A program made the translations under genes and the position numbers. DNA of 64,000 bases from Clostridiales bacterium. Its GTDB lineage: Bacteria; Bacillota; Clostridia; Christensenellales; Pumilibacteraceae. Below, piece by piece: positions 23,188 through 62,002 of this stretch; position 1 is the stretch's first letter; each line of letters begins with the position of its first letter. Location of the stretch: positions 1-64,000 of the forward strand of contig SVHU01000010.1 in assembly GCA_015055625.1 (NCBI GenBank), given 5' to 3'. The notes below the pieces were generated by a model. That model saw only the letters and a program-made list of their open reading frames with translations, ran no database searches and had not been told where the DNA came from.

Positions 23188-24078
23188 ATGGCAAAAGGAT
23201 TAGGCAAAGGCTTGAGCGCATTGCTCAGCAATTCCGAAGAGGAATACGATATTAAAGGAATTGACGCCGTTACACCCGAAGAGGCGTCGTCAACAAAAGA
23301 ATTACCAATAACTCAGATTTTTCCAAACGTTAATCAGCCACGTAAAGTTTTTGACGAGGTTGCATTAAACGAGCTTGCTAACAGCATACGTCTACACGGC
23401 GTTATTTCGCCCATTATCGTTGTAAAACAAGACGGCGGATATATGATTATTGCGGGTGAAAGAAGATGGAGAGCGTCTAAAAAGGCGGGACTTTTTACCA
23501 TTCCTGCAATCGTAAGAGATTATACTCCCAAGCAAGTTAAAGAGATTTCTCTTATCGAGAACTTACAGCGCGAAGACCTTAACCCCATTGAAACGGCGGT
23601 TGCTATCCGTCAGCTTATGGACGATTATAAGTACACTCAAGAAGAGGTTGCCGACCGTATTGGCAAGAGTCGTCCTGCGGTAGCTAATACCTTGCGCCTT
23701 CTTACTCTTTCGTCCTACGTTACATCGCTTGTGTCTAGCGGAAAGCTTTCTGCAGGTCATGCAAGATGTCTTGTTGTAGTGGACAGCGAAGAATCCCAAG
23801 CTCAGCTTGCCGATAAATGCATAAAAGACTCGCTTAGCGTTAGAGATTTCGAAAAGCTCGTTAAAAACTTCCTTAAGCCCAAAGAGAAAAAGGAAGAAAA
23901 GAAAGAACAAAGTTTAGAGCTTATCGACCTCGTTCAACGTCTTCAGCGTACGTTTGCAACCAAGGTTTCAGCTATCGGTAACGACAATAAGGGTAGAATT
24001 TATATCGACTACTACACTCGCGACGATTTGGATAGAATAGTAGAGCTTTTGACAAAACTTGAACACAAAAAGGACTAG
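23188..24078 (+). CDS. parB: Chromosome partitioning protein ParB/Spo0J
   Basis: 296 aa. The N-terminal GKGLGKGLSALL is the usual ParA-stimulating start. The CTPase/ParB domain shows PNVNQPRKVFDEVALNELANSI and the GERRWRA arginine box (about 92-98), followed by IENLQREDLNPIETA and a helix-turn-helix with QEEVADRIGKSRPAVANTLRLL that reads parS. A short C-terminal dimerisation region ends the protein. It loads at parS and recruits ParA and condensin. Three matching parS sites lie at 41.5-42.1 kb. Unusually, no parA precedes it; the gene has its own promoter and terminator and is flanked by repeats. Confidence 0.96.
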   Translation: MAKGLGKGLSALLSNSEEEYDIKGIDAVTPEEASSTKELPITQIFPNVNQPRKVFDEVALNELANSIRLHGVISPIIVVKQDGGYMIIAGERRWRASKKAGLFTIPAIVRDYTPKQVKEISLIENLQREDLNPIETAVAIRQLMDDYKYTQEEVADRIGKSRPAVANTLRLLTLSSYVTSLVSSGKLSAGHARCLVVVDSEESQAQLADKCIKDSLSVRDFEKLVKNFLKPKEKKEEKKEQSLELIDLVQRLQRTFATKVSAIGNDNKGRIYIDYYTRDDLDRIVELLTKLEHKKD

Positions 24079-25063: not shown

Positions 25064-28000
25064 TTACGCCTGCTTAACGCTAAGGTTTCTTACCTGAACT
25101 TTACCGTTATTATCGTGGAAGAATGGTACTCCTACAATAACATTGCCGTCATCTGCAAAGTTAGGCGTTGCGTTCTTAAGATCATCTAACGTGCAGGTGC
25201 CTTGTAAAGCGCCGGTATATCCTGTGTAATAACTGTAAATATCGTCAATCACATAGTTAACGTTGCTGTCGTCAAACGTTGCATTAACCGCGCCGATCCA
25301 GATCTTAACAGTCTTACCGTTAACAACCTGCATCTGGAAGTCAAGCTCTCTTGCTCCAAACGTTGTAGCAACCGTTGCATAATCCGCCTGATAGAATGCT
25401 ACGCTGTGCGTAACTGCATTTTTAGCTGCAGGTGCGTTTACTCTTAATCCCCATCCGTCGTTTGTATTTCTTGCGGAAATCATGGGAGCGCTTGTGGTAT
25501 TGTAGTTTGTAGCGATCTTCAAGATCTTGCCGGTAGAAGGCTGAATAAGCTGGAATCCAACACCTTGAGGTTTACCGTTTTTGTCCGCCCATACGGAGTA
25601 TGTTGCACGCATGGTAAGAGTTCCCTTGTTAAGGTCATAAGCCTTGCCAGTAAGGTACTGAGGAGTCTCTCCGGTCATATATCCACGTCCGTTTCCGCTA
25701 TCCGTCATAGTAATAGCAGATGCGCCACCAATCTTGCGTCCGTCTACAACCGAAGGATAAATTCTGGTGTAACCTGTAATCTTGGAGCCTGCAGTGTATG
25801 CAAACTTACCGTCGGTGTTGTAGTAGTAGCCCGAGCTATCGCCAAACGACGATGCGGTCTTACCCTCTACAAGAGTATCGATAACGGTACCCCACTTAGC
25901 GCTAACCGTGCCGTAGCCTGCAATCATTACATCATAATCCTTGTTGGTAAGAAGTACGGGAGCTGCGATCTTTTCGATTGCGCCGATAGTAGCGGTAAGA
26001 GAAGCGCCCTCTACTGCCTCGTATGCGTTGATTGCTTCGATTGCAGTAGCCTTGTTAGCGTCGTAATACTCTTTACCTGCGGGGGAAAGCTTAGCGGTAT
26101 CGATTGCGTTAATCTTTGCAATAGCGGAAGCCTTAGCGTCAGCAATAGCCTGAGTATTGTCGGTTGCGATTGCAACAGGCGTTACTTTGAAGTGGTTTGC
26201 TGCGTACGCGTTAGAGTAGATGTAGGTTTCGTGGTTTGCAAGATAACCAAACTGAACTGCAGTAGACTTGGTAGGAATCTTAGAAGAGGTGTTTGCATAA
26301 GCCGAGTTTTCGTTGTTTGTCGTGTAGTTGGTCATAAGAACTTCGTAGTCAGCGGAGAATGCAAGAACGTCGTCTACGTATACGTTAACGTCAGTTCCTT
26401 CAATTTCCCACTTAGCATGGAAGCTAGCGGACTGGAAGTTACCCTGCCACAATCCTACTTGCTCTAAAGCCTGCTGATTGTAGTAATTTACGCCCTTAAG
26501 CGAAGAAGTTACGTTCCAGCATCTCTGAGTCCAGCCGTTTGTTATACCAAACTGCATTGCAATTTTGTTTTCCTTAAAGCCAAGCACAAACTGATTGGTT
26601 CCGTTGCTGATCAAAAGTCCGGAAGTCTGGTGAGGATGATCGGTTCCAAGCATAAGGTCGCTCTCTACTACAACACGGTTGGTTGTCATATCATACTTTT
26701 CGGGAGTATAAACCTTAGAGGAGTTGGTTGCACCGCTAAAGCGAGTGCTAGAACCAGTTTCTGCACCTTCGTTAGCGAACGTTCCCCAAAGCGCGTAAGA
26801 GCCGTCTACAAGCTTCATTCCAGAACCCCAAGATCCGCCAATATAAGTGCCGATATTTCCGGTAACTTCGGAGGGAGCTACCTTCTTAGCGTTGAATATG
26901 CTGAAGTCATAAGTAAGCTGTGCGGAAGTGGAATATCCAAAGCAGAAGGTTGTGCCGGTGTTTGTAGCAGCGATGTTTTCGGTAGCCATAAGTACCCAGC
27001 CTGCTCCACCGCCGTGCTTACCGTACATTTTGAGAGTTCCCTCTTCACGTACGAACGCATAGTCGTAAACCTTTCCTGTAAAGTTGTTAATTGTAATATC
27101 CTTAGGTCCGCCAAAGTCGAACAACGTATTGTTTGCAGAAGAATCCCAGTTTGACTTACCTGTTCCCATGGAGCTAATTCCAAGATTGTCAACGTTGCCG
27201 TACTTAAACTTCATGTTGGGATCTCTGTCAGACTGCTGTCTTTCGTTCCACTTAAAGGAAAGCGTGATTGCTTCGCCAACAGCAAGGTTGGTATCAAGCC
27301 ACTGGTTGTATCTCTTTTCGCCATAATAGTTGTAAGAAAGCTTAGAGGTATCAATGGTGGAAGCAAGATCGTTAGCATTAAGAGTGTTTCCGTCAATCGC
27401 AAGCTCTCCGCCATTGCCGTCCAAAGCAAACGTCCAAGGCATCACTGCATTGTCAAGAGCGGTTGTAGCAGTCTTCTTATCTGTGTAAGAAATTGCCTTT
27501 CCAAAATGGAATTTCTTAGCAAAAGTTATGGAAGTAGAAGTACCAACAGCTACGTCAAACGAGAACGAACCGTCCTCTGCGGTTGTGGTTTCGGCAATAA
27601 CGTCACCTTCTTTTCCTGCAACTACTGCCTTTACGCTTACGCCCGAAAGAACGTTGCCACGCTCATCAACAGCCTTACCCGTAAGAGCGTAAGAAGTCTT
27701 GTTTTCAAAGTTTGCCTTTACGGAAACTTCTTCTACAACGTTAGCGTCAGAGGTTGCCCAGCCTGTAAATACGTTATAGCTGTACGCGTCTGCTTCCTTT
27801 TCGGGAACGATAAGAGAAGCGGTATCGATAGAGGAAAGAACAGTACCGTACTTTACGGAAAGCGCATCGTTACCCTCAAAGGTTACTGCAATATTTGCTT
27901 CTACCTTTGTTTTAACAGCGTTAAGAGAAGCAAGAATAGCATCAGCTTCTGCTTGCGCGGTTGCTTCGTCCAAAGTAGCGATTGCTTCGATATCTGCAAG

Positions 28001-31000
28001 AGCGTCAGCTTTTGCGGTATTAAACTCGCTAGCGCCGTATGCAGTTGTATCCGCAACCTCAATACCGTTTGCGGTATTGAGTGCGGTTGTCTTAATTGCG
28101 TTTACTTTTTCTACTGAATCAGTATTTGCAGTATAGGTAATCTTACCGTTGGTAAGAGTGGTTTGGTTATCCGTTCCGCCACCATGGTAGAACGCGGTAA
28201 ATCCAATAGCGATATCAGATCCTGTTCCCTGATACTTTCCGTCGGAAGTTTCGCCTGCATAGAGGGGGAATTTTTTAACACCCTCATCGCTCCATACGTA
28301 TCCACCACCGTGTCCGTTAGTGAGATCACGGAACTTAGAGTAGATATCCTTAATATAGAACGTAGGATTGTTAAGGTCGATAGTGCTTGCATCTTTACCG
28401 TACCAAAGCTTGATAGAATATCCGTCAACCTCAGCTCTTACGTAGTAGGTAACCTCACTTCCGTCAGCAGTGAACGCAATAGCATTTTCTCCTGTTGGAA
28501 CATTGTACGCGTCTACGTTGGAAGCGTTAAGAATAATTCTTCCATCCCATCCATCGCCTGTTGGATTAACGGATGCCATAAGCTCGGTAGAGTTTGTCTT
28601 GTTGTTTCCTAAAGCAAAGGTAATAACCTTACCGGTAGAAAGCTGAGTAATTCTAATACCACCACCCTGGTGAGTTTTGCCGTTGTATTTAACGGTAAGG
28701 AATCCCTCTGCCTCAAATACGCCGTTTTCTGCATCACCAACGGTCTTAGTGTAGATCATATGCTCGTTTACGTTGAAGTTACCGTTTTCGTTACCACACG
28801 TTGCGGTAAGAGCACCATTTTCGCCAGAAAGTCCATTTGCGGTAAATACGCCCTTAGGATTGATAGTCGTATCAGTAGTTACAACAGCACCCTCTGCATA
28901 ATCCCAAGCAGTTGCGTAGGTATAACCTGCGTCTGTACTCATATTTACAAGCTTAACCCCGTCAAGATTGTCTGCAACAAGAGCTCCGTATCTTACTTCT
29001 TGCGCGTCGTTGCCATAGAAAGTAAGAGAAACGTTGCTGTCAACTACTGCTTTTGCATCGGTTGCAACTTTAAGCGCGCCCTCAATAATTTCTGAAGCCT
29101 CAGCCTCGTCAAGCGTAGTAATTCCGTTTACGGTTGCTTTTGCGGTTGCTTTTGCATTGTCAAGATAGGTCTGACCGTATGCGGTAACTCCACTTTCCGC
29201 AACAACTGCATCAATATCTGCAAGCGCCTGAGTCTTAAGAGCTTCTACTGCAAGTCTTGCGCCTTCGTTATTGTCATAATCTACCTTAGCCTTAGCTTCG
29301 ACAATAACCTCTTCAAGCTTGTTATAGTCTACCATTGCGTCAATAATAGCAATTCCGCCGTCGAGCTTGGTAAAGCCGTTTTCGTCTGCGTATGCGCTAA
29401 GCTGAGCCTTTGCGTATCTCTTTGCAACGCTAAGCTTTGAAGCGTTTACGATTGCAAGAGCTTCTTCGTCATAGTCTGCACCTACCTTATGAGCGTAGGA
29501 AGTAATGGGTGCAAGGTCAGCCTCGGTTGCTTCGGTATTCAAAGACGCTGCGTACTCGTTAACTTCTGCGGTTGCGTCCGTTTTAACCTTTGCAACAAGC
29601 TCGTCGTCGGTGTTGTACGTAACCTTAAAGTTCTTAACTCTTGCTCTGTCGGTACCAAATCCGTTTTCGTGGTTGAAGTACATACCTACGTAAACGTCGG
29701 AAGTGGGATACTTGTTGTTATATCCTTCTGCTGCATTTGCATCAAGCGCAGTCTTGATAAACTCGGTAAGGTTCTCAACCGAGAAGAACTTAATTCCGTC
29801 ATAGTATACGGTAAGAGTATTGTTATCGAATACGTATTTAAGGTGAATGTTCTTCTCTTGAGCGCTATGCCACTCTTTTACCATATCGGTATTGTATACG
29901 GTAGAGTTTGCATTGCTCTTAAGCTTATCCAAGCCGTTCCAAGTTCTTGCTCCGTTACAGTTACCGTCGTTAAGACCGAAGATAACCTGCTTGCCGTTAG
30001 AACGCATAAGCACGCTGAGCTTTCTTGAAGTGCTTGCACTGTCACGAAGAGTAATACCGAATGCTGCACCGCCTGCGCGTCCCTGAACAACTGTGAAGTC
30101 ACCCTCTACAACAAGTCTACCGGTTCCAAACTTGTAAGTCTTGGAGTTGTCGTAAATCAAACCGTACGTACCGTCGCCACCCGTATCTGAAGCGCAGTTA
30201 CCGTTACCGGAAATATTGAGCTCGTACTCATATCCGTTAGTTTCGTTATCCCAAGCGGCAGAAGCGTTGGTTGCAGTGAAGGTGTACGCATCAACCTTTG
30301 CGCCTGCGGGAAGATTGGTTTCGGTATCGATTGCACCGTACTCAATACCCTCCAAGGTCCAGTTGTGAGCAAATTCTCCAGAACGTGTTCCCATTGTAAA
30401 GGTGATCCAGTCGCCTGCAACGGTTCCGTCGCCGAGTTTTACCCAATCACTGTCAGAGTTGGTAAGCTTTCCGTAAATGTCTACGTGATTATCAGTAGTC
30501 TTTACGTACATAATATCCATATCGGGCTTATCGTAGTCTGCAAGTACTCTGCCAATAGAACCAGCGCCTCTGAACGAGTTTTCGAACAATCCGCTGAAGG
30601 GATTCGTGGTAGTTCTGCTAAACTGACTGGTTGCATTTGCATCAGCAGCGTCAGTAACGTAGTCCTGACACCACTGGTCGCAAGCAAGAACGTTACCGTT
30701 ATTACCGTTAATCTTGATTGCTTTTTTACCAACGATCATCTTAAGACCGATGTCTGCAAACTGATTAGAAGCGTTGGTGTACTTGCCACTATTGTGAATG
30801 TTATGAGCGGGATTTCCGTCACTGCCGTCGTGGAAGTTTACTGTAAATTTATAATACGTGTTCTCTTTAAGAACCGCACCCGTTCTGAATGCAGGATTGA
30901 GAATATATCCGTTTACGTCGTAGGAAAGTCCTTCTACGCTCGCGTCGCTCAAATCATCGCTATAAGTTCCGCTTGCAACAACGGTTTTGTTAGAGGAAGA

Positions 31001-34000
31001 CCAACCGTATGCAAGAGCTACGTCAACAGTCTTAACTGCATCCTTAACGCTTACGTCAGCATCAATCTTTGCGGTTCTTGCATAAACGTACGTTTTATTA
31101 ATATCTGCAAATCTGGAAGCTGTATCCAAAATTTCGGGAGTAGACCAGGTAATATCGGAAGCGCCAAGCAAAACTTCGATAGAGTAAGCACCGTTTTCGT
31201 CGGTTACTCCTGTATAAACCGCTCCGCTTTCATGTTTAATGGACACTTCTACGCCTGCAAGTTTAGCACCTGCATAATCAACAGCCGTTCCGCTAATAGT
31301 TACTGCGTAGTAGTTATAAATGAACTCTGCTTCTACATTTGTAACCTCAGCGGTTGCAACTGCGTCGTCAGCTACTGCCCACTTATCAAACTCGTAAGTA
31401 CCGATTCCACCCTTGTCGTCTTCCTTAGTAGGAGCGGTGAAAGTGGAAACGTCGATAGAAGAGATAAGAGTTCCATACTTAACGGTTACTTCGTTATCGC
31501 CAAATGCTACGACAACCTCGCCCGTTACCTGAGCAATCTTGTCTTTTACCGCCTTAACAGCACCGTCTGCGGTAGCCTGAGCTCCGTCTACCGAGTCAAT
31601 AGCGTTAATCGTTGCCTTAGACTCTGCAACGGTTGCGTCAAGATCTTCAATACCCTTAGCGGTTAACGTGTCCTTGTCAACCCCTGCATAAGCGGTATCA
31701 ATTTCAGTAATTGCATTATCAACAATTGCAAGAAGTCCTTCTGCATCTTCGGGATGTGAAGCGAAGAAGTCTACAACCTGCTTAGCCGCGTCAAGTGCCG
31801 AAGAAATACCGTCAATAGAGGTTACTGCGTCAATCTTAGACGTCATAGCCTCAACAACAGCTACACCCTTGCTCTCAGCATAGATAGCAAGCTCTTTCTT
31901 TGCCTCTGCCTTTGCATCGTTAAGAAGATCAGCACTAGTCTTGTAAGTTGCCTTAAAGTCGGTTACAACAACTCTGTCGATGCCTCTTCCACCCTCGTGG
32001 TTGAAGTAGATACCTGCGTTAACTGCAGAGTTGGGCATTCTGTTAGCAATTGCGGAAGCCGCATTATTGAGAGTATCGAACTGAGTTTCAACAAGCTTAA
32101 CAAGATCGGTTACCGTAAAGAGCCAGTTTTCTTCGGTTGCCTCGGGCATACCCTCTGTACTGATGTAGTAAGAGATCTTGTTGCCCTCAAACACACCCTT
32201 AAGGTAGAAGTCTTTTGCGTTACCGTTATTCCAGGTAGGAAGCTTATCCTTATTTATAGAGAAGTACTCGCAAGCCTTGTTCTGAAGATGGAAGATTCTC
32301 CAACCGCTTCCGTTACCGTTTGCAAATGCAAGACCTACGCCACCGTTGGACTTAACGCCAAGGTAGTAGAATCTGCCCGTTTCGTTAGCATCCTGAATGT
32401 AGAAGCCTGTAAGCGCGCCACCAGTATGTCCGTCCTGAGCGTTGAACTTTCCTTCCAAGGTAAGAATTCCGTCGTTGAGATAGTCATAAGAATCCTTAAT
32501 GCTGTACGCCTTAGCAAACTGTCCATTTCCGCCTCTTGCAAGCTGGTTCCAACCGTCGTTTGTAACTTCTGCATAACCTGTAAGGTCAAGAACGTAAGTT
32601 TCCTTACCCTCTGCATCTCTTACTACGGATGCATTGTCGGTGTTATATAAGTATTCGTCAATCTTTTCGCCTGCAGGAAGTCCCGTTTCTACGTCAATCG
32701 CACCGCTTTCGATATTCTTAACGGTTTCGTTGATGTACCACTCGTTGCTACGTGTAGACTGAGCGATAATAAGGTTCTTACCCGCGATAGCAGTCTTGCT
32801 CTCTGCCATAAGCACCCAACCGTGAACAGATCCACCAAGTCTGCCGTAAAGCTTAACCTTGCCCTCAGCGTCTTTTACGTACATCATATCGTATTCGATG
32901 TCGTAGTTGGGATTGTACTTGCTTGTATCCTCAACAAAGGTACGGTATGCTTTCTCGTAGAACGCCTCGAACGGAGAATCGTTTACGATATTGAACTGTC
33001 TGTCTGCAGGAATAGAAGCCTGAGAGCTATAACCGTAGAACCTCTTATCGGATGTCATAGCCTCACCGCCCTGTCCGTTAACCTTTACCGTATGTCCGCC
33101 CTGATCGAAAGTTCCGCCTACGCCCATCTTGAACGCAACGTCTGCAAAAATGTAGTTATCAACAACCTGACCTACCGTTGTACCTGCGCCTGCGTTGCTT
33201 CCGGTAAGAGTCTTTTTAACGGTTGTATAATACTTGTTTGTGTTAACGTTAATACCGTGAGCAAGTTTACCCTCGCTTGCGCCGTTAAATTTAGTTGTGA
33301 ATTTATAATATGTGTTCTTGTCAAGAACGTCAGCCGTTTCGTATACAAAGCCACTAGAAGCAGATGCGAAATCAAGCTGAAGGTTATTTACAACAGCGGA
33401 AGCAAGATCGTCGGTATATTCGTAAGAAGCCTTCATAGCTTTTTCTGCGCTATGCTCAATAACACCATTTGCAATAGCCATTACGCCGATTGCAATTTCG
33501 CCGTCCTTCTTGTCAACGCCGTTAGTAACAGCAGTTGTTCTTGCAAGATAACCTGCCTTAGAAATCTCTACGCTAATATCGCCAAGGCTTGCTTCAATTG
33601 AGTAAGCACCACTTTCGTCGGTTACGCCCTCATAAGTTGCGCCTTCTGCGTTAGTAATAACAACGCTTGCTCCTGCAATGGCATTACCCTTATCGTCTAC
33701 CGCGCTACCACTAATAGTTAAGTTATAGTAGTTGTATGTGTACTCGGGAGTAATTTCAAGATTGCTTCCAACAACTCCGTCCTCGGTTTCGTACGACCAA
33801 GACTTGAATACGTATTCGCCAAGTCCGCCCTTGTCATCCTCTTTTGCGGAAGCTACCTTGCCCTCAAGCAAGCTTGCAACTTCGGTACCGAATAATACAT
33901 CCTTGATCTCTTCTGCAACTTCACCCTTTGCATCCAAAATGCTTACGGTGAACTTTTGCTGAACAGCTTCGCAAATCTGATCGGTCCACTGTTTACCTGT

Positions 34001-37000
34001 TGCAATGTCTTCGTCAATAGTTTCAATATTGTAAAGAGCATCAAGATACGTTATAGCCTGAACTTCAAACGCGTCAAGCATATTCTTTGCGTAATCGGTA
34101 ATGCCCTTTTCCTTGGTTGAAGCAATAGCATCAGCAACGTAATTCTTAGCCTCAGCTACTTTTGCAGTAATACCAAGAATAGAGCCGTCATTCTCTTTCT
34201 CTGCATCGATAAGAGCTATTGCCTTTGCTGTATTTGCGTCAACTTCGTCCTTGGTTGCGCTATCGCTTATAAGAGCCTTAATGTAAGCATCCTCTTCTGC
34301 AGAAAGCTCAACACCATTAGTTGCTGCGTACGCCAATACGTTTGCAATAGCGTCAGCCTTGTAGTCGGCAAAGAAGATAAGAGCTTTTGCTTCCTCAATT
34401 GCCTCAGCCTTTGCCTTGTAGCTTACCATATTGTTTATGGGAGCAAGCTCAACGTCGGTAAGTTCGAAGTTAAGAGAAGTTGCGTATGACTCAATTTCTT
34501 CGGTTGCTTCATTCTTAGCAATAGCGGTAATGTCCGCATTGGATACGTAGTTGATAGAACCGTTGCTTATAATAGTTCCGCCTGCTGTGCCTGCGTCGCC
34601 AAAGCTTACGTAACCCATACATACGTTACCTGCGCTCCAAGCATCAGAGCCTTCTGCCTTATACTTGCCGTCAGCAGTGTCTGCAATGAAGGGGAATCTA
34701 GGCTCTCTGTTCTTGGCCGCATTGGAGTTTCCGCTCCACTGAGATCCGCTTCCGTGTCCACCGGGAGCTGTGGATAGATGCGCGTACATATCAACTTCCC
34801 AAGTGGGTTTACTAAAGTCGATAGTGGACTCGTCTTTTCCGATCCAGATCTTCCATACGTAACCTTCAACTTCCGCTCTCATATAGTATTTAGCAGGATT
34901 TGCCTTAGAAGCAACTGCTTCGGTTTGGAAGGATATTGCGTTTACGCCTGTGGGAGCATTTATAGCTCCAAGAGTTGCTCTGGTATTCCAACCGTTACCT
35001 TCGGAAACCTGAATCAAAAGCTCACTATTGGTCTGGTAGGAAGGCTCGATGGTGATCATCTTACCGGTAGCCATTTGCTTAAGTACGAAGCCTGCGCCCT
35101 GATGACGCTTCCATTCGTTATTAGCGTTATATCCACCCCAAGCAGTGAAGTTACCTTCGATAAAGAACTTACCGTCGGTTACGTCGCCGATAGTAGAAGT
35201 ATCCCAAAGAATAAAGTCGCCGTTTTGTTCGTGAGTGATAGTACCACCCGTCAAAGATACAAGCTCGCCATCGCCGTTAACGGTTGCAGTTCCGCTGGTT
35301 CCGTTGAACAAGCAGTCGCCAACAATCAACTTTTCAACCATAAGCTTGATGTCTTCTTGAGCGTCTTTCTTAAGATCAAAGTCTTTATAAGTAATATTTA
35401 ACTGATGTCCGCCACGCGCTGAGTAAATAAGCGATATTGCAAGCTCTTCGTCGCCAAACGCGAAGTTGCTTTCAGATACGAGCGTGTACTCTTCGTCCGT
35501 AGCAAGTTTTGCAAACATATAAACCTTTCCGTCTACACGCGCGTACATTATATTATATTCGATATCATATCTGTCAGGATCCGTCATATCGATGTAAGCG
35601 CCTTCAATTCCCTTAATAGAGAATGTGGGAGGATTGTAAATCTTAGCGCCGTTACCAATACCGGCACCCTTAGAAGACAAGCCCATCTGCTTTCCGCCGA
35701 CCTCGTTCCAGAAATACATATCGGAGGGAGCTCCAACAAAATCAGGAGCTACGTCGGGACGAAGGTAAGTATCTTCACCCGCGTACAAATCACCAGCCTT
35801 GAGACCCATATACAAAGCGTGTCCGTCTTCGAACTTCATGGTGTAGGAAATAATTTCGCCGTCGCCAAGCTTTTCGCCAAGGTTATATTTTTCCCAAGCA
35901 CCGTTATGATATCCGCTTCTGGTTACCTTAAACGTAGACGCTACGTCTTCAGCTGAAGAATCAACACTGTACTCGATTTTACAATTTTCAGAAGTTACAC
36001 CCGTCCAGTTTGTTCCCCAAATGTTCTGAGCTAGCTCTACTTCTACCAAAACAGGCTGGTCAACAACGATAAACTCTTGAACTTTACCAAATATGTTGCC
36101 GGAAGTTAAAACTTCGATATAATACTCACCTGCAGGCAAATCAATGCTTCCATTATAATCTTCTACGGTAGAAGTTACGGAAGTATATACAAGATTTCCG
36201 TTTGCTTTGTAAACATTAAACTCTATGCCGTTTGCAAGTGCGCCGTCTTCGGTTACAATTGCAAACTTACTGTTATATCTACCTTCTTTTGCTTTTACCT
36301 TTACTTCAAACTTATAGCTTGCGCCCTTTTCGGGAGTAAAGGTATATTTATAGTTTTCGTTATCTACGTAAACAACTTTATCGGTTACGTCAACACCCTC
36401 GTCGGTTACGCCCTCTTTTGTGGTGTAGATAACGAGAGATTCAACGTCTTTAGGCTGGAAGAAACGTCCGAATACAACCGTTACGTCCTTGCCTATCATA
36501 AAGTAATCGTTAAGGTCAATATTTACGCCCTTCATTGCGTTTGCGCCGTCTACAACGTTAAGATCGCCAACGTAAACGGATGCGGTTGCCTGTCTTAAAG
36601 TTGCATCGCTCTTATCAATTGCAATTTCAACGGAACCATACTCGTTGTAAGTAGCAATTACGTCAGCGTCGGTAGTGAACGAAGCGTTAGTTAAAAGATA
36701 GGGAACGTACTTTTCACCACCCATTGTTACGTATTGTCCTACTTTTAAGGTTTCGGTAGAAATAATCTTTGCTACCTTTTCGCCAATGATTGCGTTTTGA
36801 GCATCAGTAAGAGTAACGTCGGTTGTTACGGAAATAAAGCCTTCTTCGGTAAGAACGAACTCCATATTGCCGTCAATATAGAAGTACAACGCGTCGCCCT
36901 TCTTCATAAGATCTAACTTAAGACCGGCGCCGTTAGTAGCTTCATAAATACTCTGAGCGGAGAATGCGTGACCGGTAAAGATGGGATCCCAGCCGTTCTT

Positions 37001-38779
37001 CATTCCGTCGTATGCAATCATAATGTTATTATCAAGAAGCATTACGTTAAGATAGGTGTTGTTGCCCATCTCAAATGCCCAGCCATATCCGGGAGAAGGC
37101 TCTCTTTCAACGTCTTCGGGCATTCTGTCCCAATCGTTTTGAACGGTATAAGAAGCTCTGAACGTTTCAACGTCTTGGGGTAAATCGTTAAAGAACGCGA
37201 TCTTCTGCTTAAGTCCATTAATCTGTCCGTCAGCGGTATTAGTAAGACCTTCCATATCAAAGTATCCAAGATATACGTCGTCTAAAGCAACGTCCTCCTG
37301 TCCTGCTTCGATAACAACGTTCTCGGTGTGGTAAACAACGTCGTTTACTACAAACTCAATCTTGTGCTCACCAGATTTTAGGGAAAGCTTAATATTTGCA
37401 AGATCGGTATAATCAACAATTTCGTCGTTCACTTTAAGAACAACGTCAGTTTCAGATTCAATAATAGCAAAATCTGCGTCCTTGTTTACAACGTAAGCAG
37501 AAACGCCAACTTCGTATGTATTTTGTTCTATACCCTCTGCGGTAATAACGATATCAGCACCCTTTGTTCCTCCAAGAACTTCAAAGGTATATACGTTTTC
37601 TACCGCCTCAACAGCTTCGCCGTTTACCAAAATGGTATAATCAGCGCTTCTGTTATAATCAGCCTCAAGCGCAATAGTAAAGCTTACGCTCTCACCCTTA
37701 GCGTAGGTTTGTTGGGGATTAGTAATAGTAAAGGTTGCGCCCTCAATTTCTTCGATTACCTTATAAGAATACGTATTTTCAGTAAACGTGGGCTTTAATG
37801 TTACGTTGCCCGAAATTGCGCCAACGTCGCTATTGTCAAGATTTACCCACTTATCAAAAGTATAGTAGGTTTCGCCATTGTCATCCTTGGTTGTAACAAT
37901 GCCGTCAAGATCGGGAACAGCGCCGTACTTAACGCCTGTAACAGGAGTTAAAATGGGTTCGTTAGCTTCGTTTACAAAAGATACGGTATAGGTTTCTCTT
38001 ACGTAGTGAGCAGTTACATCGTCGCCATTAGCCTCAAACTTGTCAAGTACAAATCCATCGATTGTATGAGTAAACTCACTCTTGTCCGCTTCGCCCTTAA
38101 AGCCCCATTCAACGTCTTCTCCGTCGCTATACTCGGAATTGTTCACGTTTTCAAGCTTGATTTTAACGTTTGTGGTCCAATCGTTATCTTCAATCTTAGC
38201 ATAAAGCGTAAAGTCTTCATCCCTTTCTGTCGGTGTATACGCTACGTTAAAGCTCGGATCCATATACCAGCCTACAAACTTCTTTTGTTTGGGAAGAGTG
38301 GGAGCTGCGGGAGCTGGAATGAAAGAGTTCTCTTCATAAACGTCTTCAAGCTCGGTCTCAACGCCTTCAACGTTTAAAGTAACGTTTACTGTTACGGGCT
38401 TGTAAACGTTTACCTTAAAGGTATGAGCGGACTTGTGGTCCTTGTCTTTGCCCTCTTTGAATACAACAATCCAGAAATCATTGTTGCCTTCTACGAGTTC
38501 CAATCCTTCTTGGTCTTGCAAATCGGTAAGAGCCTCATCTGCATAAACCTCCATCTCAAAGCCGTTCTTTACAGTGAAGTCCTGCAAGAAGTTGTACGTT
38601 GCGTTATCATAATTCTTGTCTGACCAGCCAATGTTGATAACCTGTTCGTCGCTGTACTTCTCGTCAAGATACTTCAAAGCGTCTTTAGCTTTGGGATCTG
38701 AGCTTCCGCCACATGCCGTAGCCATTGTTGCGGCTGCGAGCATCATGACAAATACTGCTACTAATTGCTTTTTTTTCAT
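25064..38779 (-). CDS. Giant modular surface lipoprotein (4571 aa)
   Basis: A lipoprotein signal peptide (KKK, hydrophobic core, then ATMATAC with C23) implies membrane anchoring outside the cell. The rest is modular. Two InlB-like beta repeats with FVGWYMD and FDKWVNL lie at about 130-195 and 263-326. From about 505 to the end come at least ten concanavalin/LamG-like beta-sandwich units, recognisable by FYIDG, RADVE/RAEVEGY-K-WIG and similar strands. They are interspersed with five alanine- and lysine-rich helical FIVAR-like segments (about 1450-1600, 2290-2413, 3067-3240, 3557-3630, 4207-4270), each followed by a short beta repeat with the motif KYGT. Carboxypeptidase-regulatory-like units (SGSAVDDKGNAIAGASV and relatives) follow at about 1690, 2490 and 3690. 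No catalytic motif or sortase signal was found. AGGAGGG precedes the ATG. Glycan binding or adhesion is the likely role; it is inferred. Confidence 0.85.
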   Translation of the reverse strand: MKKKQLVAVFVMMLAAATMATACGGSSDPKAKDALKYLDEKYSDEQVINIGWSDKNYDNATYNFLQDFTVKNGFEMEVYADEALTDLQDQEGLELVEGNNDFWIVVFKEGKDKDHKSAHTFKVNVYKPVTVNVTLNVEGVETELEDVYEENSFIPAPAAPTLPKQKKFVGWYMDPSFNVAYTPTERDEDFTLYAKIEDNDWTTNVKIKLENVNNSEYSDGEDVEWGFKGEADKSEFTHTIDGFVLDKFEANGDDVTAHYVRETYTVSFVNEANEPILTPVTGVKYGAVPDLDGIVTTKDDNGETYYTFDKWVNLDNSDVGAISGNVTLKPTFTENTYSYKVIEEIEGATFTITNPQQTYAKGESVSFTIALEADYNRSADYTILVNGEAVEAVENVYTFEVLGGTKGADIVITAEGIEQNTYEVGVSAYVVNKDADFAIIESETDVVLKVNDEIVDYTDLANIKLSLKSGEHKIEFVVNDVVYHTENVVIEAGQEDVALDDVYLGYFDMEGLTNTADGQINGLKQKIAFFNDLPQDVETFRASYTVQNDWDRMPEDVEREPSPGYGWAFEMGNNTYLNVMLLDNNIMIAYDGMKNGWDPIFTGHAFSAQSIYEATNGAGLKLDLMKKGDALYFYIDGNMEFVLTEEGFISVTTDVTLTDAQNAIIGEKVAKIISTETLKVGQYVTMGGEKYVPYLLTNASFTTDADVIATYNEYGSVEIAIDKSDATLRQATASVYVGDLNVVDGANAMKGVNIDLNDYFMIGKDVTVVFGRFFQPKDVESLVIYTTKEGVTDEGVDVTDKVVYVDNENYKYTFTPEKGASYKFEVKVKAKEGRYNSKFAIVTEDGALANGIEFNVYKANGNLVYTSVTSTVEDYNGSIDLPAGEYYIEVLTSGNIFGKVQEFIVVDQPVLVEVELAQNIWGTNWTGVTSENCKIEYSVDSSAEDVASTFKVTRSGYHNGAWEKYNLGEKLGDGEIISYTMKFEDGHALYMGLKAGDLYAGEDTYLRPDVAPDFVGAPSDMYFWNEVGGKQMGLSSKGAGIGNGAKIYNPPTFSIKGIEGAYIDMTDPDRYDIEYNIMYARVDGKVYMFAKLATDEEYTLVSESNFAFGDEELAISLIYSARGGHQLNITYKDFDLKKDAQEDIKLMVEKLIVGDCLFNGTSGTATVNGDGELVSLTGGTITHEQNGDFILWDTSTIGDVTDGKFFIEGNFTAWGGYNANNEWKRHQGAGFVLKQMATGKMITIEPSYQTNSELLIQVSEGNGWNTRATLGAINAPTGVNAISFQTEAVASKANPAKYYMRAEVEGYVWKIWIGKDESTIDFSKPTWEVDMYAHLSTAPGGHGSGSQWSGNSNAAKNREPRFPFIADTADGKYKAEGSDAWSAGNVCMGYVSFGDAGTAGGTIISNGSINYVSNADITAIAKNEATEEIESYATSLNFELTDVELAPINNMVSYKAKAEAIEEAKALIFFADYKADAIANVLAYAATNGVELSAEEDAYIKALISDSATKDEVDANTAKAIALIDAEKENDGSILGITAKVAEAKNYVADAIASTKEKGITDYAKNMLDAFEVQAITYLDALYNIETIDEDIATGKQWTDQICEAVQQKFTVSILDAKGEVAEEIKDVLFGTEVASLLEGKVASAKEDDKGGLGEYVFKSWSYETEDGVVGSNLEITPEYTYNYYNLTISGSAVDDKGNAIAGASVVITNAEGATYEGVTDESGAYSIEASLGDISVEISKAGYLARTTAVTNGVDKKDGEIAIGVMAIANGVIEHSAEKAMKASYEYTDDLASAVVNNLQLDFASASSGFVYETADVLDKNTYYKFTTKFNGASEGKLAHGINVNTNKYYTTVKKTLTGSNAGAGTTVGQVVDNYIFADVAFKMGVGGTFDQGGHTVKVNGQGGEAMTSDKRFYGYSSQASIPADRQFNIVNDSPFEAFYEKAYRTFVEDTSKYNPNYDIEYDMMYVKDAEGKVKLYGRLGGSVHGWVLMAESKTAIAGKNLIIAQSTRSNEWYINETVKNIESGAIDVETGLPAGEKIDEYLYNTDNASVVRDAEGKETYVLDLTGYAEVTNDGWNQLARGGNGQFAKAYSIKDSYDYLNDGILTLEGKFNAQDGHTGGALTGFYIQDANETGRFYYLGVKSNGGVGLAFANGNGSGWRIFHLQNKACEYFSINKDKLPTWNNGNAKDFYLKGVFEGNKISYYISTEGMPEATEENWLFTVTDLVKLVETQFDTLNNAASAIANRMPNSAVNAGIYFNHEGGRGIDRVVVTDFKATYKTSADLLNDAKAEAKKELAIYAESKGVAVVEAMTSKIDAVTSIDGISSALDAAKQVVDFFASHPEDAEGLLAIVDNAITEIDTAYAGVDKDTLTAKGIEDLDATVAESKATINAIDSVDGAQATADGAVKAVKDKIAQVTGEVVVAFGDNEVTVKYGTLISSIDVSTFTAPTKEDDKGGIGTYEFDKWAVADDAVATAEVTNVEAEFIYNYYAVTISGTAVDYAGAKLAGVEVSIKHESGAVYTGVTDENGAYSIEVLLGASDITWSTPEILDTASRFADINKTYVYARTAKIDADVSVKDAVKTVDVALAYGWSSSNKTVVASGTYSDDLSDASVEGLSYDVNGYILNPAFRTGAVLKENTYYKFTVNFHDGSDGNPAHNIHNSGKYTNASNQFADIGLKMIVGKKAIKINGNNGNVLACDQWCQDYVTDAADANATSQFSRTTTNPFSGLFENSFRGAGSIGRVLADYDKPDMDIMYVKTTDNHVDIYGKLTNSDSDWVKLGDGTVAGDWITFTMGTRSGEFAHNWTLEGIEYGAIDTETNLPAGAKVDAYTFTATNASAAWDNETNGYEYELNISGNGNCASDTGGDGTYGLIYDNSKTYKFGTGRLVVEGDFTVVQGRAGGAAFGITLRDSASTSRKLSVLMRSNGKQVIFGLNDGNCNGARTWNGLDKLKSNANSTVYNTDMVKEWHSAQEKNIHLKYVFDNNTLTVYYDGIKFFSVENLTEFIKTALDANAAEGYNNKYPTSDVYVGMYFNHENGFGTDRARVKNFKVTYNTDDELVAKVKTDATAEVNEYAASLNTEATEADLAPITSYAHKVGADYDEEALAIVNASKLSVAKRYAKAQLSAYADENGFTKLDGGIAIIDAMVDYNKLEEVIVEAKAKVDYDNNEGARLAVEALKTQALADIDAVVAESGVTAYGQTYLDNAKATAKATVNGITTLDEAEASEIIEGALKVATDAKAVVDSNVSLTFYGNDAQEVRYGALVADNLDGVKLVNMSTDAGYTYATAWDYAEGAVVTTDTTINPKGVFTANGLSGENGALTATCGNENGNFNVNEHMIYTKTVGDAENGVFEAEGFLTVKYNGKTHQGGGIRITQLSTGKVITFALGNNKTNSTELMASVNPTGDGWDGRIILNASNVDAYNVPTGENAIAFTADGSEVTYYVRAEVDGYSIKLWYGKDASTIDLNNPTFYIKDIYSKFRDLTNGHGGGYVWSDEGVKKFPLYAGETSDGKYQGTGSDIAIGFTAFYHGGGTDNQTTLTNGKITYTANTDSVEKVNAIKTTALNTANGIEVADTTAYGASEFNTAKADALADIEAIATLDEATAQAEADAILASLNAVKTKVEANIAVTFEGNDALSVKYGTVLSSIDTASLIVPEKEADAYSYNVFTGWATSDANVVEEVSVKANFENKTSYALTGKAVDERGNVLSGVSVKAVVAGKEGDVIAETTTAEDGSFSFDVAVGTSTSITFAKKFHFGKAISYTDKKTATTALDNAVMPWTFALDGNGGELAIDGNTLNANDLASTIDTSKLSYNYYGEKRYNQWLDTNLAVGEAITLSFKWNERQQSDRDPNMKFKYGNVDNLGISSMGTGKSNWDSSANNTLFDFGGPKDITINNFTGKVYDYAFVREEGTLKMYGKHGGGAGWVLMATENIAATNTGTTFCFGYSTSAQLTYDFSIFNAKKVAPSEVTGNIGTYIGGSWGSGMKLVDGSYALWGTFANEGAETGSSTRFSGATNSSKVYTPEKYDMTTNRVVVESDLMLGTDHPHQTSGLLISNGTNQFVLGFKENKIAMQFGITNGWTQRCWNVTSSLKGVNYYNQQALEQVGLWQGNFQSASFHAKWEIEGTDVNVYVDDVLAFSADYEVLMTNYTTNNENSAYANTSSKIPTKSTAVQFGYLANHETYIYSNAYAANHFKVTPVAIATDNTQAIADAKASAIAKINAIDTAKLSPAGKEYYDANKATAIEAINAYEAVEGASLTATIGAIEKIAAPVLLTNKDYDVMIAGYGTVSAKWGTVIDTLVEGKTASSFGDSSGYYYNTDGKFAYTAGSKITGYTRIYPSVVDGRKIGGASAITMTDSGNGRGYMTGETPQYLTGKAYDLNKGTLTMRATYSVWADKNGKPQGVGFQLIQPSTGKILKIATNYNTTSAPMISARNTNDGWGLRVNAPAAKNAVTHSVAFYQADYATVATTFGARELDFQMQVVNGKTVKIWIGAVNATFDDSNVNYVIDDIYSYYTGYTGALQGTCTLDDLKNATPNFADDGNVIVGVPFFHDNNGKVQVRNLSVKQA

Positions 38780-39372
38780 AATCCCTCCTATGAATTATAA
38801 ATATTTTTTTCAAATTATTAAAGATACGGACGCTTTTTAATAAGATAAAAAGCCATTAAACTACAAAACAAGTGGAAAAATGCAAAAATATCGAATCTTA
38901 GTTCGATTTAACCGCATTTTCCCGCAATGCAACAAAGATTTTCCGTATCACTAGCTTTCGGCGTAATAATAAATTTCACGCCAACTCAAACTATTTTTAT
39001 ATCCTATTAAAGTCATATAGTTTTTTTATACTTATATTATAAAATAAAACACATGTTAATTACAAGATAAAATTTGTTATTTTATAGCCATTTTTTGTCT
39101 TATTCGCCAAAACTAAGCAAATTTTCATAAAAACCTAGCCACACTCGCTAAAAACTAATAATTACGTCATTAATTTTAACCACAATTAGCCTTTAATAAA
39201 GATAGAACACAAAAGCTCTTATATTCACACTAAGGCTGTGCAATACGCCAACTTATACGCTATATTCGATATGTGTTATTTATCTAATATTAAACGTTAA
39301 TTATTACGATTACTTTAAAAAAAGTTATCTATCGCGACAATACCTTTCGTAACTATTGAGGATAATTTTATT
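38780..39372. other. AT-rich upstream region of the giant gene
   Basis: No gene is apparent. It should contain the promoter for the giant lipoprotein; a TATAAT on the minus strand at 39036-39041 is the best -10, with only a weak -35 (TGTAAT at 39059-39064), which would give a leader of about 250 nt. Confidence 0.4.
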
Positions 39373-40239: not shown

Positions 40240-41475
40240 GCCGATTTATACAAATTTTCTACAATTAATAAAAATTCTACAAAAATAAAACTAACAAACA
40301 CAACCATAAGACAAAAATTGAAGACACGTTACTCGGCAAAATCCTGTATTGTCTAATAAAGTCCTTAACACAAATTAAATAAGCAAATGCAAAAAACCAA
40401 TAGAAAATTTAAGTAATTTAAAATCGTGGAACATTCACAGAAATTTAATCTCATCAAAAAAATTTATACATACAGATTATAGACAAACTAAAAAGCTTTC
40501 ACAAAACAAACTTGGCTACATTTCAATTCTACTTCAAACATATAAATTTCTCACCGCAAATGACTGCGCAATAGGTAAAAAGATTAATTTCATTATCTTT
40601 ACAAACCTACACAAACACAAAATCAACAACACCCCATATAATGCATTAAATTATTTAATCCAAACCATTTATAATTTCAAGTAATCACACCATATACTCA
40701 TCACCCACTTAAAAGTTATAACATTATCAAAAACAACGTAAACTTCTGTTAGATCCAAACCACACCACCCACAACGGCAATAAACACAATTACAAAGCGC
40801 AACCCACAAAATTCTAATTACTTCACACGCCACCCAATAGCACTTAAACAGAAGATAGATCATCAAAACGCAACAACTAAAACAAAAACAACCGCTTAAA
40901 AAGCCCAAACAAAACCTATCACTCTACCTATAAACCATATTTCTCCACACGCATGAAACTATACTGCACACCAAACAAAACATATCTACACAAACAATCA
41001 CAAATCAAAACTTTATAATGCAAACACAGCAACTCAATCAACCAACACAGTTCAACATAGCACATAGCACCAAAAAGACAACACGCCAAAAAACATTTAA
41101 TCCGCGAATAAACCCATTATAATCTACTAGTCTAGCAAAACACAACTAGCACACACCTCAAACCAAGCCCGCCTAATCGCCCCCAAACCACCAACAACCC
41201 CATGTTTAGCCAAACAAAGCTACACAACGGCAACAAAATTAAAACCCAAACAACATCTCCACCAAAAACATTAAACAACAGCCAGCAAAATAACAAACCA
41301 ATCCCTAACCAAACAACACACCCCTATAACCACGCCATTCAACCACATTTCACTACAAACACAGCCCCATTACGCCACAAACGCCACTATCACCACTCCC
41401 AACCGCAGTCATTAAAAGCATTTTAACTAAAACCCAACCCCGATAAAAAACCTAGAACAACCTTAAACCACACAA
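40240..41475. other. G-poor, A/C-rich noncoding stretch
   Basis: The top strand is strikingly poor in G and T. In 41221-41280 and 41341-41400 together I count 45 C against 5 G, and in the first of these 33 A against 7 T. Open frames here on both strands have biased composition (Cys/Trp-rich on one strand, Thr/Pro/Gln/Asn-rich on the other), no ribosome sites and no family resemblance. The segment ends at the first parS site. I read it as noncoding DNA shaped by replication-strand mutation bias. Confidence 0.7.
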
Positions 41476-41495
41476 AAAAACAAACACTTTCAAAA

Positions 41496-41511
41496 TGTTT
41501 CACGTGAAACT
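41496..41511. other. parS: parS site 1
   Basis: TGTTTCACGTGAAACT matches the Firmicutes parS palindrome TGTTTCACGTGAAACA at 15 of 16 positions. ParB encoded at 23.2 kb should bind it. Confidence 0.9.
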
Positions 41512-41539: not shown

Positions 41540-41555
41540 TGTTTCACGTGAAACA
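41540..41555. other. parS: parS site 2 (perfect)
   Basis: TGTTTCACGTGAAACA, identical to the consensus, 44 bp from site 1. A decayed half-match (CATCTCATGTAAAACC) lies between the two sites. Confidence 0.95.
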
Positions 41556-42111: not shown

Positions 42112-42127
42112 TGTTTCACGTGGAACA
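42112..42127. other. parS: parS site 3
   Basis: TGTTTCACGTGGAACA, one mismatch to consensus. It sits beyond the 3' end of the AraC gene at 42199. Confidence 0.88.
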
Positions 42128-46254: not shown

Positions 46255-47330
46255 TTTTAACATTTGTCAAATAACACAATATTGGACCGATATGTTGTGA
46301 TTTGAGTAAAAGAAAGTAAATAGCAATCGTTAGTTATTATGTAGGAGCGATTCTCACTCGGTGCGATGGCGCACCAACGTGGACGGTGCGATGGCGCACC
46401 AACGTGGACGGTGGATCCGATATATTGTGCTTTAACAAAGCAAGTAATTAAGTGTAGTTGGTTTCTTAACTTGCTGTAAGGGCGATTCACGAATCGGTGC
46501 GGAGGCGCACACCCGATATTATAAAGCAATCCACACCGGAAGGATTGGATAAAACAACTAGTTATCCTTTCGCAATAAAATCCCTCAGACAAAACTAAAA
46601 GTTTTGCCAGCTCCCTTTACAAAGGAGCCTTTATAAGGCTAATTCGTAAACGATATAGATGTAGGGGAGAGGTTTAACTCCTTCCAAAAATACTATGCAA
46701 TAAATAAAAATCGGGTCGCCTTTTAGACTTCCCCTACAATAATAGGATAACGAATCAACCTCTCAACGTCATTGCGAGCGAAGCGTGGCAATCCCGGTGC
46801 GGAGGCGCACACCAACGTAGACGTTGGATCCTATATGTTGTGCTTTAACAAAGCAAGTAATTAAGTGTAGTTGGTTTCTTAACTTGCTGTAAGGGCGATT
46901 CACGAATCGGTGCGGAGGCGCACACCCAATATTATAAAGCAATCCACACCGGAAGGATTGGATAAAACAACTAATTATCTTTTCGCAATAAAATCCCTCA
47001 GACAAAACTGATAGTTTTGCCAGCTCCCTTTACAAAGGAGCCCTTATAAAGCTAATTCGTAAACGATATAGATGTAGGGGAGAGGTTTAACTTCTCCCGA
47101 AAATACCACACAATATCTAAAAATCGGGACGCCTAATAGACGTCCCCTACAATAATAGTACAACGAATCAACCTCTCAACGTCATTGCGAGCGAAGCGTG
47201 GCAATCCCTATTGTTAAACCTATCCTAAGAGATTGCCACAGTCACTTATGCTCCTTCGCAATGACATAAAGCCAAATCCACAAACGTAATAGAGCTATTT
47301 AACTCCCGCAATATTAATCTGCACCCAATA
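46255..47330. repeat. Composite repeat block
   Basis: This 1.1-kb gap contains at least three interspersed families: the GATTCGTGAATC/GTGCG-hairpin modules, the element around CTCCCTTTACAAAGGAGCC, and ATTGCGAGCGAAGCGTGGCAAT. A 25-bp hairpin unit beginning GGTGCGATGGCGCACC is duplicated head-to-tail at 46360-46384 and 46385-46409. No gene is seen. Confidence 0.85.
46384..47208. repeat. Tandem duplication of a 412-413 bp segment
   Basis: The sequence from about 46384 to 46795 recurs from 46796 to 47208 with only scattered substitutions; for example TTTAACAAAGCAAGTAATTA occurs at 46431 and 46844. Each unit carries one of each repeat family. The two copies have diverged slightly, so this is older than the 19.4-kb duplication. 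Confidence 0.9.
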
Positions 47331-60529: not shown

Positions 60530-60813
60530 GCATAAAAAAACCGAGAACGCTTTTTTTACGCTCTCGGGACGATTTCTAACCGCGGTACCACCCGTATTGA
60601 TGCATAACACATCCACTTTTTTACGTACTATCATACGCTCCTGCTTTTTACGAGTTAGGTTCTCGTCGATTGCTACTTGTCTTTTAGACTTTCGTTCGCC
60701 CTCATAAGTCCATTCGCCGAAATCCATCCACAGCGTCGCACCTACCCGCTGTTCTCTGTAAGGACCTTAAAATTACGGTTACTACTCTTAATCAAAGGTT
60801 TATTTATTAACTT
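60530..60813 (-). ncRNA. T-box riboswitch, Trp specifier
   Basis: On the minus strand the leader has AGAGTAGTAACCG, then GGTGCGACGCTG, the specifier loop GAATGGACTT with TGG (Trp) at 60710-60712, and the T-box core GGGTGGTACCGCGG at about 60580-60593. It ends in a terminator hairpin (GAGAGCGT/GCGTTCTC, T7 at 60534-60540). Uncharged tRNA-Trp should pair with the specifier and antiterminator to switch on trpB. The predicted promoter at 60820-60848 sets the start near 60813. Confidence 0.92.
60534..60568 (-). terminator. T-box terminator hairpin
   Basis: CCCGAGAGCG and GCGTTCTCGG (minus strand) with TTTTTTT after it; competes with the antiterminator helix built on the T-box core. Confidence 0.88.
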
Positions 60814-60919: not shown

Positions 60920-61594
60920 TTATACTAAAGGTTTCGTTTTGGGTAAATTCTTTCCTCTTGGATATTTATTAGGGGTTTCCTTTATCTTTTTAATAAATAC
61001 TAACTTTCTTACAATATCGGTTTCGGGAATTTCAATTTCCTTAACCTCTTCTATTTTTCCGCCAAGAATTTCTATCGCTTTTTCACTGTTTTTTAATTCT
61101 TCGTCAATATCTTTAGATTTATACGCAATAAAATATCCGCCCACTTTAACAAACGGTAAACAATACTCACTCAGAGTATTAAGCGAAGCAACGGCGCGGG
61201 ATAAAGCATAGTCATACTTTATGTTTTTATTCAAATCTTCCGCTCTTGAGTGCAGAGTTTTTACTTTATTTAATGAAAGCTGATTTATAACCTCATTTAA
61301 GAATATCAAACGCTTATTCAAGCAGTCGTTTAACGTAAGGGAAATATCCTCTCTTACTATCTTTATGGGAAGAGAGGGAAATCCTGCTCCCGTTCCTATA
61401 TCTATAACGGTAGCATCTTTTTTTATAAACTCTTCACCAATCAAAGAATCAACAAAGTGTTTAGTAAAAACTTCGTCATGTTCTGTAATTGCAGTAAGGT
61501 TCATTTTCTCATTCCATTCTACAAGAAGTGAACAATATTTTTCGAACTGTGTATAAAATTCGCTGTATTTATTTTTTATGTACAAGTTATCCAT
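60920..61594 (-). CDS. rsmG: 16S rRNA (guanine(527)-N7)-methyltransferase RsmG
   Basis: 224 aa. SAM-binding motif I is VIDIGTGAGFPSLP (63-76), preceded by EWNEKMNLTAITEHDEVFTKHFVDSL, the GidB hallmark; the later RAVASL and VGGYFIAYK strands match the family. It methylates G527 of 16S rRNA. In many Firmicutes it lies beside mnmG/mnmE near oriC; here it is close to mnmE but on the opposite strand, with a DnaA-box cluster between. The ATG has no ribosome site and a TATAAT ends six bases before it, implying a leaderless mRNA. Confidence 0.95.
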   Translation of the reverse strand: MDNLYIKNKYSEFYTQFEKYCSLLVEWNEKMNLTAITEHDEVFTKHFVDSLIGEEFIKKDATVIDIGTGAGFPSLPIKIVREDISLTLNDCLNKRLIFLNEVINQLSLNKVKTLHSRAEDLNKNIKYDYALSRAVASLNTLSEYCLPFVKVGGYFIAYKSKDIDEELKNSEKAIEILGGKIEEVKEIEIPETDIVRKLVFIKKIKETPNKYPRGKNLPKTKPLV

Positions 61595-62002
61595 AGTCTT
61601 ATTATAATAAAAAACTCACTTTCTTGTCAATCACTCTTCCATTGTTTTTCACGTTGTTATATTATATAATTTAAATATTAGTTATTATATTGAAGATTAT
61701 CTCGGTGGAAAAGTGGATAATTGTGAAACATGCGATTTTAGGCTGAGAAACATTGAAAAACATCTAAAATAAGCCTAAAATATAGAGATTTTTATCAACA
61801 TTTAAATTGTTGATACGATATTGAAAGTATATGTATAAACGAATGGAGAAGTTAATAAGTTGTGTGGATAAAAAAATTAGAAAATCAATTTATAAAAGAT
61901 AAAAATACTTAAAATAAAGTTATCCACAAAAGTTATCAACACTGTGGATAACTTATATACATATACGTTGAATAATTGTGGAAATCATTATTTGATTAAA
62001 GA
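61587..62002. other. oriC: Candidate replication origin: DnaA-box cluster
   Basis: Perfect DnaA boxes (TTATCCACA or its complement) lie at 61863-61871, 61920-61928 and 61943-61951. One-mismatch copies are TTATCCATA 61587-61595, AGTGGATAA 61712-61720, TTATCAACA 61792-61800 and 61933-61941. The gap is AT-rich, divergently flanked by rsmG (-) and a membrane gene (+), and next to mnmE. The run 61920-61951 holds three boxes in alternating orientation. AT-rich DNA right of it could unwind. dnaA itself is not in the window. Confidence 0.75.
61601..61630 (-). promoter_or_regulatory. Leaderless promoter of rsmG
   Basis: TTGACA at 61625-61630 and TATAAT at 61601-61606, minus strand, 18-bp spacer, with AAGACT before ATG at 61594. 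Confidence 0.7.

Follow-up and report, generated by a model that had tools for sequence, protein, structure and literature searches.

The 64,000-nucleotide window (the whole stretch of contig SVHU01000010.1 that was analysed) carries on its minus strand one very large gene, the product of which we favour, with some reserve, as a secreted, most likely lipid-anchored multi-lectin fibre for multivalent glycan capture or adhesion. The gene is a single open reading frame at 25064–38779, extending from an ATG at 38779 to a stop at 25064, 4571 codons with no internal stop, while the plus-strand reading of the same positions contains many stops. The encoded protein is rich in Ala, Gly, Thr, Val, Asp and Asn, with Cys at 0.3%, and its internal repeats are significant (self-BLAST E to 1e-42).

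Results

Module organisation of the giant protein

Self-comparison identified three recurrent unit types and about 11 units in all, A to K, located as follows.

38783–38789, minus: Shine-Dalgarno AGGAGGG, read just 5' of the giant-gene ATG; inside the homology to the C9 paralogue
38711–38779, minus: signal peptide (residues 1–22) and candidate lipobox A-T-A-C, Cys23; pattern match, identical in the C9 paralogue and both G002 copies
38195–38383, minus: List_Bact/InlB B-repeat, residues 133–195; Pfam PF09479, 31.4 bits, cut-off 27
37763–37930, minus: InlB-like beta repeat, residues 284–339; C33-paralogue repeat profile E 9e-5, best of 20 shuffles 0.022
36605–37267, minus: beta unit A, residues 505–725; residues 573–712 match the tip domain of GH43-linked lipoproteins, E 4e-9
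35270–35992, minus: beta unit B, residues 930–1170; residues 1069–1119 match the second domain of GH43-linked family proteins, E 2e-6
34550–35227, minus: putative type-1 ConA-like unit C, residues 1185–1410; alignment A1, hhalign to type 2 probability 87, E 4e-6
33920–34552, minus: helical segment 1; AlphaFold helices, first ~120 model residues at pLDDT about 74–94
33512–33718, minus: CarboxypepD_reg domain 1, residues 1688–1756; PF13620, 44.5 bits, cut-off 32.3
32660–33451, minus: type-3 beta unit D, residues 1777–2040; homologous to F, weak link to the GH43-linked family
31844–32662, minus: predicted type-2 ConA-like unit E, residues 2040–2312; AlphaFold beta sandwich, Foldseek matches
31460–31843, minus: helical segment 2; AlphaFold helix at its start, alignment A7
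31136–31300, minus: CarboxypepD_reg domain 2, residues 2494–2548; PF13620, 31.1 bits, E 3e-7
30290–30997, minus: type-3 beta unit F; homologous to D
29525–30292, minus: putative type-2 ConA-like unit G; homologous to E
29006–29527, minus: helical segment 3; homologous to the other helical segments
28139–28789, minus: putative type-1 ConA-like unit H; homologous to C
27860–28117, minus: helical segment 4; alignment of helical segments
27524–27685, minus: CarboxypepD_reg domain 3, residues 3699–3752; PF13620, 24.3 bits, E 4e-5
26810–27457, minus: type-3 beta unit I; weak matches to the D/F profile (E 1e-3) and to the GH43-linked family (E 2e-3)
26075–26812, minus: putative type-2 ConA-like unit J; aligned with units E and G; match to the GH43-linked tip domain at E 3e-6
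25910–26077, minus: helical segment 5, short; alignment of helical segments
25067–25747, minus: putative type-1 ConA-like unit K, C-terminal end; self-comparison, no wall anchor (LPxTG, SLH or other) after K

Starting at the N-terminus, the signal, Cys23 and the InlB repeats come first and A, B and C next, followed by helix-beta-CarbD-D-E, helix-beta-CarbD-F-G, helix-beta-H, helix-beta-CarbD-I-J and helix-beta-K. The recurring block is thus helix-beta followed either by CarbD-type 3-type 2 or by type 1, and the recurring order given in the original prediction is upheld both by self-comparison and by its conservation in two species. The three carboxypeptidase-regulatory-like units also predicted correspond to three stretches matched by PF13620 (69.2 bits over the whole protein), the first copy alone scoring above the cut-off. 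Two of the predicted InlB-like beta repeats are supported, residues 133–195 by Pfam and 284–339 by the paralogue profile, and about five more were seen by eye only; the beta segments preceding CarboxypepD_reg scored no better than shuffles against the C33-paralogue InlB profile.

Predicted fold of the beta and helical units

The beta units had been described as at least ten LamG-like units. Ten slices of the giant protein produced no LamG match in Pfam, nor was one detected in NCBIfam, and profile searches of the three unit types and the helical segments against PDB sequences returned nothing. Structure prediction was performed on residues 1410–2320 (AlphaFold model 1, 7-row alignment), in which the first ~120 residues form confident helices and unit E a moderately confident beta sandwich. 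Foldseek matched this model to laminin LG, PL7 lyases, ERGIC-53, legume lectins and GH43-containing structures, with E 5e-6 for laminin-111 and 3o12. Unit E is therefore predicted to be a concanavalin A-like two-sheet sandwich; the query ranges of the Foldseek matches were not printed, and they are assigned to unit E because the confident beta region lies there. Profile links and homology are predicted to carry the same fold to most of the ~11 units, since hhalign connects type 1 with type 2 (probability 87, E 4e-6) and since matches to a family of 1.9-kaa lipoproteins were obtained for A and J (tip domain; E 4e-9 and 3e-6) and for B (second domain; E 2e-6), against a best shuffle of about 0.01. 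No link from the type-3 profile to type 2 was obtained by hhalign. Thus, the lectin-like character of the units is retained as a predicted ConA-like fold, outside the LamG profile families. The AlphaFold model of units A–C was too poor (pLDDT 38.5) and the Foldseek matches obtained from it were discarded. Of the five segments predicted as helical and FIVAR-like, segment 1 is helical in the confident part of the AlphaFold model and segment 2 at its start, and the others align with them. FIVAR gave no profile match in the giant protein and GA reached 15.9 bits, below the cut-off of 24; the segments are referred to here as helical bundles only.

Modules in common with GH43-linked lipoproteins

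The same genome encodes nine lipoproteins of 1.8–1.96 kaa (contigs C7, C31 with two, C5, C33 with four, and C12) and one shorter protein of 0.86 kaa (C36). Each of these approximately ten genes is located 14–19 bp behind a GH43 gene (L014, L095 and L097–L101), and most GH43 proteins of the tandem pairs are predicted lipoproteins too. Identity among the nine is 78% at the N-terminus and declines progressively to 28% at the tip. These List_Bact-repeat proteins share with the giant protein a putative lipoprotein signal, InlB repeats and predicted ConA-like tip domains, whereas the giant has about 2.4 times their length, carries added helical and further CarboxypepD_reg modules, and is encoded alone, without GH43. 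A further predicted lipoprotein of 1621 aa (L102:5047–9912) carries a MAC/perforin domain and, after it, ten List_Bact/InlB repeats.

From the predicted fold, and from the modules in common with GH43-linked proteins, we infer that the giant protein binds glycans; no glycan-binding residues were identified in it. ConA-like and laminin-G folds are associated with protein binding as well as sugar binding, and the giant might instead be a fibrous adhesin or cell-cell contact protein in which the ConA-like units bind proteins or act as spacers, with no glycan role. Laminin LG is indeed among the Foldseek matches, and the neighbours of the giant gene are parB, ftsH and an AraC regulator, with no adjoining GH gene, although the 64-kb window also holds GH10, amylase-like and GH42-like genes. 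We regard this alternative as rather unlikely, since modules A, B and J are common to lipoproteins encoded behind GH43 genes. The long fibre with many glycan-binding heads of the original prediction thus retains its length, its repetitive nature, its recurring order and many predicted lectin-fold heads, with glycan binding as their putative role.

Probable membrane anchor

The giant protein is likely lipid-anchored. The A-T-A-C at Cys23 satisfies a PROSITE-like lipobox pattern but fails the strict consensus, which has [LVI] at −3 (PMC5817068), as A occupies this position. The lipobox cysteine originally predicted is consequently supported by the looser pattern and by its invariance in four gene copies, in which it precedes a linker-like stretch, but not by the strict consensus. 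A-T-A at −3 to −1 also fits AxA, the signal peptidase I motif, and the protein could accordingly be secreted without a lipid, the fibre being shed or held non-covalently. This is improbable, given the invariant Cys23 and the linker-like stretch, the lack of any wall-binding domain to retain the protein, and the other large surface proteins examined in this genome (864–1959 aa), which are also predicted lipoproteins conforming to the lipobox pattern, in nine cases with VVAC, LVAC or VIAC.

LspA is encoded in the same genome (108 bits, C9:28056–28523), while no sortase, SLH or Omp85 was found in it at 94.7% completeness. The absence of Omp85 suggests that the cell is probably monoderm. Sortase was detected in 18 of the 101 genomes searched, all 18 from other families, and in none of the searched members of the window's family. 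With LspA present and both sortase and SLH absent, a lipid anchor is the expected choice in this lineage, and most of the oddity originally perceived in lipid anchoring of so long a protein disappears.

Conservation of the reading frame

A syntenic orthologue occurs in a second species of the same genus (G002; MAG RGIG8643, water deer cecum), 85.4% identical over 11.7 kb to the contig end and with the same module order; flanking genes are 77–91% identical in DNA. Comparison of 3868 codons (Nei-Gojobori) gave dN 0.106, dS 0.427 and dN/dS ~0.25, with omega at 0.06–0.32 in all 200-codon blocks. The syntenic copy, combined with this ratio, leads us to conclude from sequence comparison that the giant frame is translated and that its module order is real. 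The original claim of a single uninterrupted 4571-codon frame is therefore exact in its coordinates, lies on the minus strand, and has an orthologue under purifying selection. An assembly chimera or a decaying gene is very improbable: both G002 copies are broken (C29 by one stop and one frame break, C36 by one frame break), the breaks having been kept uncorrected and possibly representing MAG errors or decay, and two further partial copies in the window's own genome (G000) end at contig ends, but the window copy is intact across 13.7 kb, omega is low throughout, and an independent metagenome shows the identical order.

Distribution and mosaic evolution

The giant family was detected in two of 61 relatives searched, both genomes belonging to one genus, and the type-1 profile, searched in 396 genomes of the order, matched a single one, that from which the window comes. 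Between the window and G002 copies, dS is about 0.6–2.1 at residues 1–1600 and 0.04–0.30 at residues 1600–3900; such low distal and high proximal values, between flanks of 77–91% identity, suggest that the distal half may have been recently exchanged between species. The two G002 paralogues exhibit 88–95% DNA identity in the first ~320 codons and 50–62% beyond, and between the two G000 copies identity is 97% across the 278 bp available, homology to the C9 paralogue starting about 37 nt 5' of the ATG. The simplest reading would be that the membrane-proximal base has been homogenised by gene conversion. The C9 end and C33 start were considered as one split gene, and no overlap between them was found.

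Chromosomal surroundings

Three parS sites (41496–41511, 41540–41555 and 42112–42127; 0–1 mismatches, 0.04 expected by chance) lie upstream of the giant gene, with parB (23188–24078) about 17 kb from the trio, and a parS trio, likewise including a 44-bp pair, occupies the syntenic position in G002. Beside parS, the roughly 1.2 kb at 40280–41500 are non-coding and extremely biased between strands (A near 0.45, C near 0.3, G near 0.06); a shorter stretch of the same bias occupies the same place in G002, with no sequence similarity detected. A DnaA-box cluster at 61500–61960 adjoins rsmG/gidB (60920–61594) and is likely the chromosome origin, in which case the giant gene is co-directional with replication. 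Two intergenic 300-nt direct repeats, 95% identical, are present at 46394–47106, other short repeats recur near the C9 and C33 gene ends, and a T-box leader (60562–60804) lies 5' of a gene for a PLP-dependent enzyme.

Discussion

In the favoured reading, the N-terminal cysteine of the giant would be acylated and tether the protein to the cytoplasmic membrane, on its outer face, with the InlB-like repeats as the base of the fibre. Sandwiches of the ConA-like type, helical bundles and CarboxypepD_reg domains would make up a rod that extends through the wall and may reach beyond it, where about eleven putatively glycan-binding heads of lectin fold would meet plant glycans, host glycans or other cells. 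The giant would thereby work as a multivalent tether beside the pairs of GH43 and 1.9-kaa lipoproteins with common modules. More tentatively, giant ConA-lectin fibres and the approximately ten GH43/1.9-kaa pairs could possibly constitute a surface system made of lipoproteins only, with which a Bacillota lineage lacking sortase and SLH captures fibre glycans. Such a system would be a monoderm counterpart of the Bacteroidota surface glycan-binding lipoproteins, diversified by base conversion and tip exchange.

The giant protein illustrates a way in which very long surface fibres may be built by a gut lineage of Gram-positive type that lacks sortase and SLH anchors, and the common modules tie these fibres to an expanded set of glycosidase-linked lipoproteins. 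This tie provides a testable model of fibre attachment in uncultured herbivore-gut Clostridia, with C, E and J as defined modules.

Bacteroidota SusD/SGBP surface lipoproteins are lipid-tethered and perform multi-domain glycan capture beside glycosidases. The same combination is proposed for the giant, but no SusC/SusD homology is claimed, the cell is probably monoderm and the folds differ. Giant adhesins of the Ebh/Embp type, which combine LPXTG with FIVAR/GA modules, are very long, have helical modules and form a surface stalk. The giant would resemble them in all three respects but has no FIVAR/GA match above cut-off, a genome without sortase, and predicted ConA-like heads. Literature searches yielded nothing direct on giants with a lipid anchor or on Christensenellales that lack sortase. 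Closest among published kinds are the giant extracellular proteins from Apilactobacillus kunkeei, Giant1–5 (PMC12863079), which are likewise repetitive, come from a small Bacillota genome, carry an N-terminal signal peptide and have several paralogues, at 3,000–8,000 aa. Giant1–5 have Sec/SPI signals and a C-terminal DUF5776, with no recent gene conversion seen between paralogues (PMC12863079), whereas the giant has a putative lipoprotein-type signal, ConA/CarboxypepD_reg/InlB modules and apparent homogenisation of its N-terminus, and its last slices have no DUF5776 match in Pfam. Since signals, C-terminal domains and modules all differ, the giant is not a member of the A. kunkeei kind. Giant modular surface proteins are thus already known, and the variant described here is so far found in one genus.
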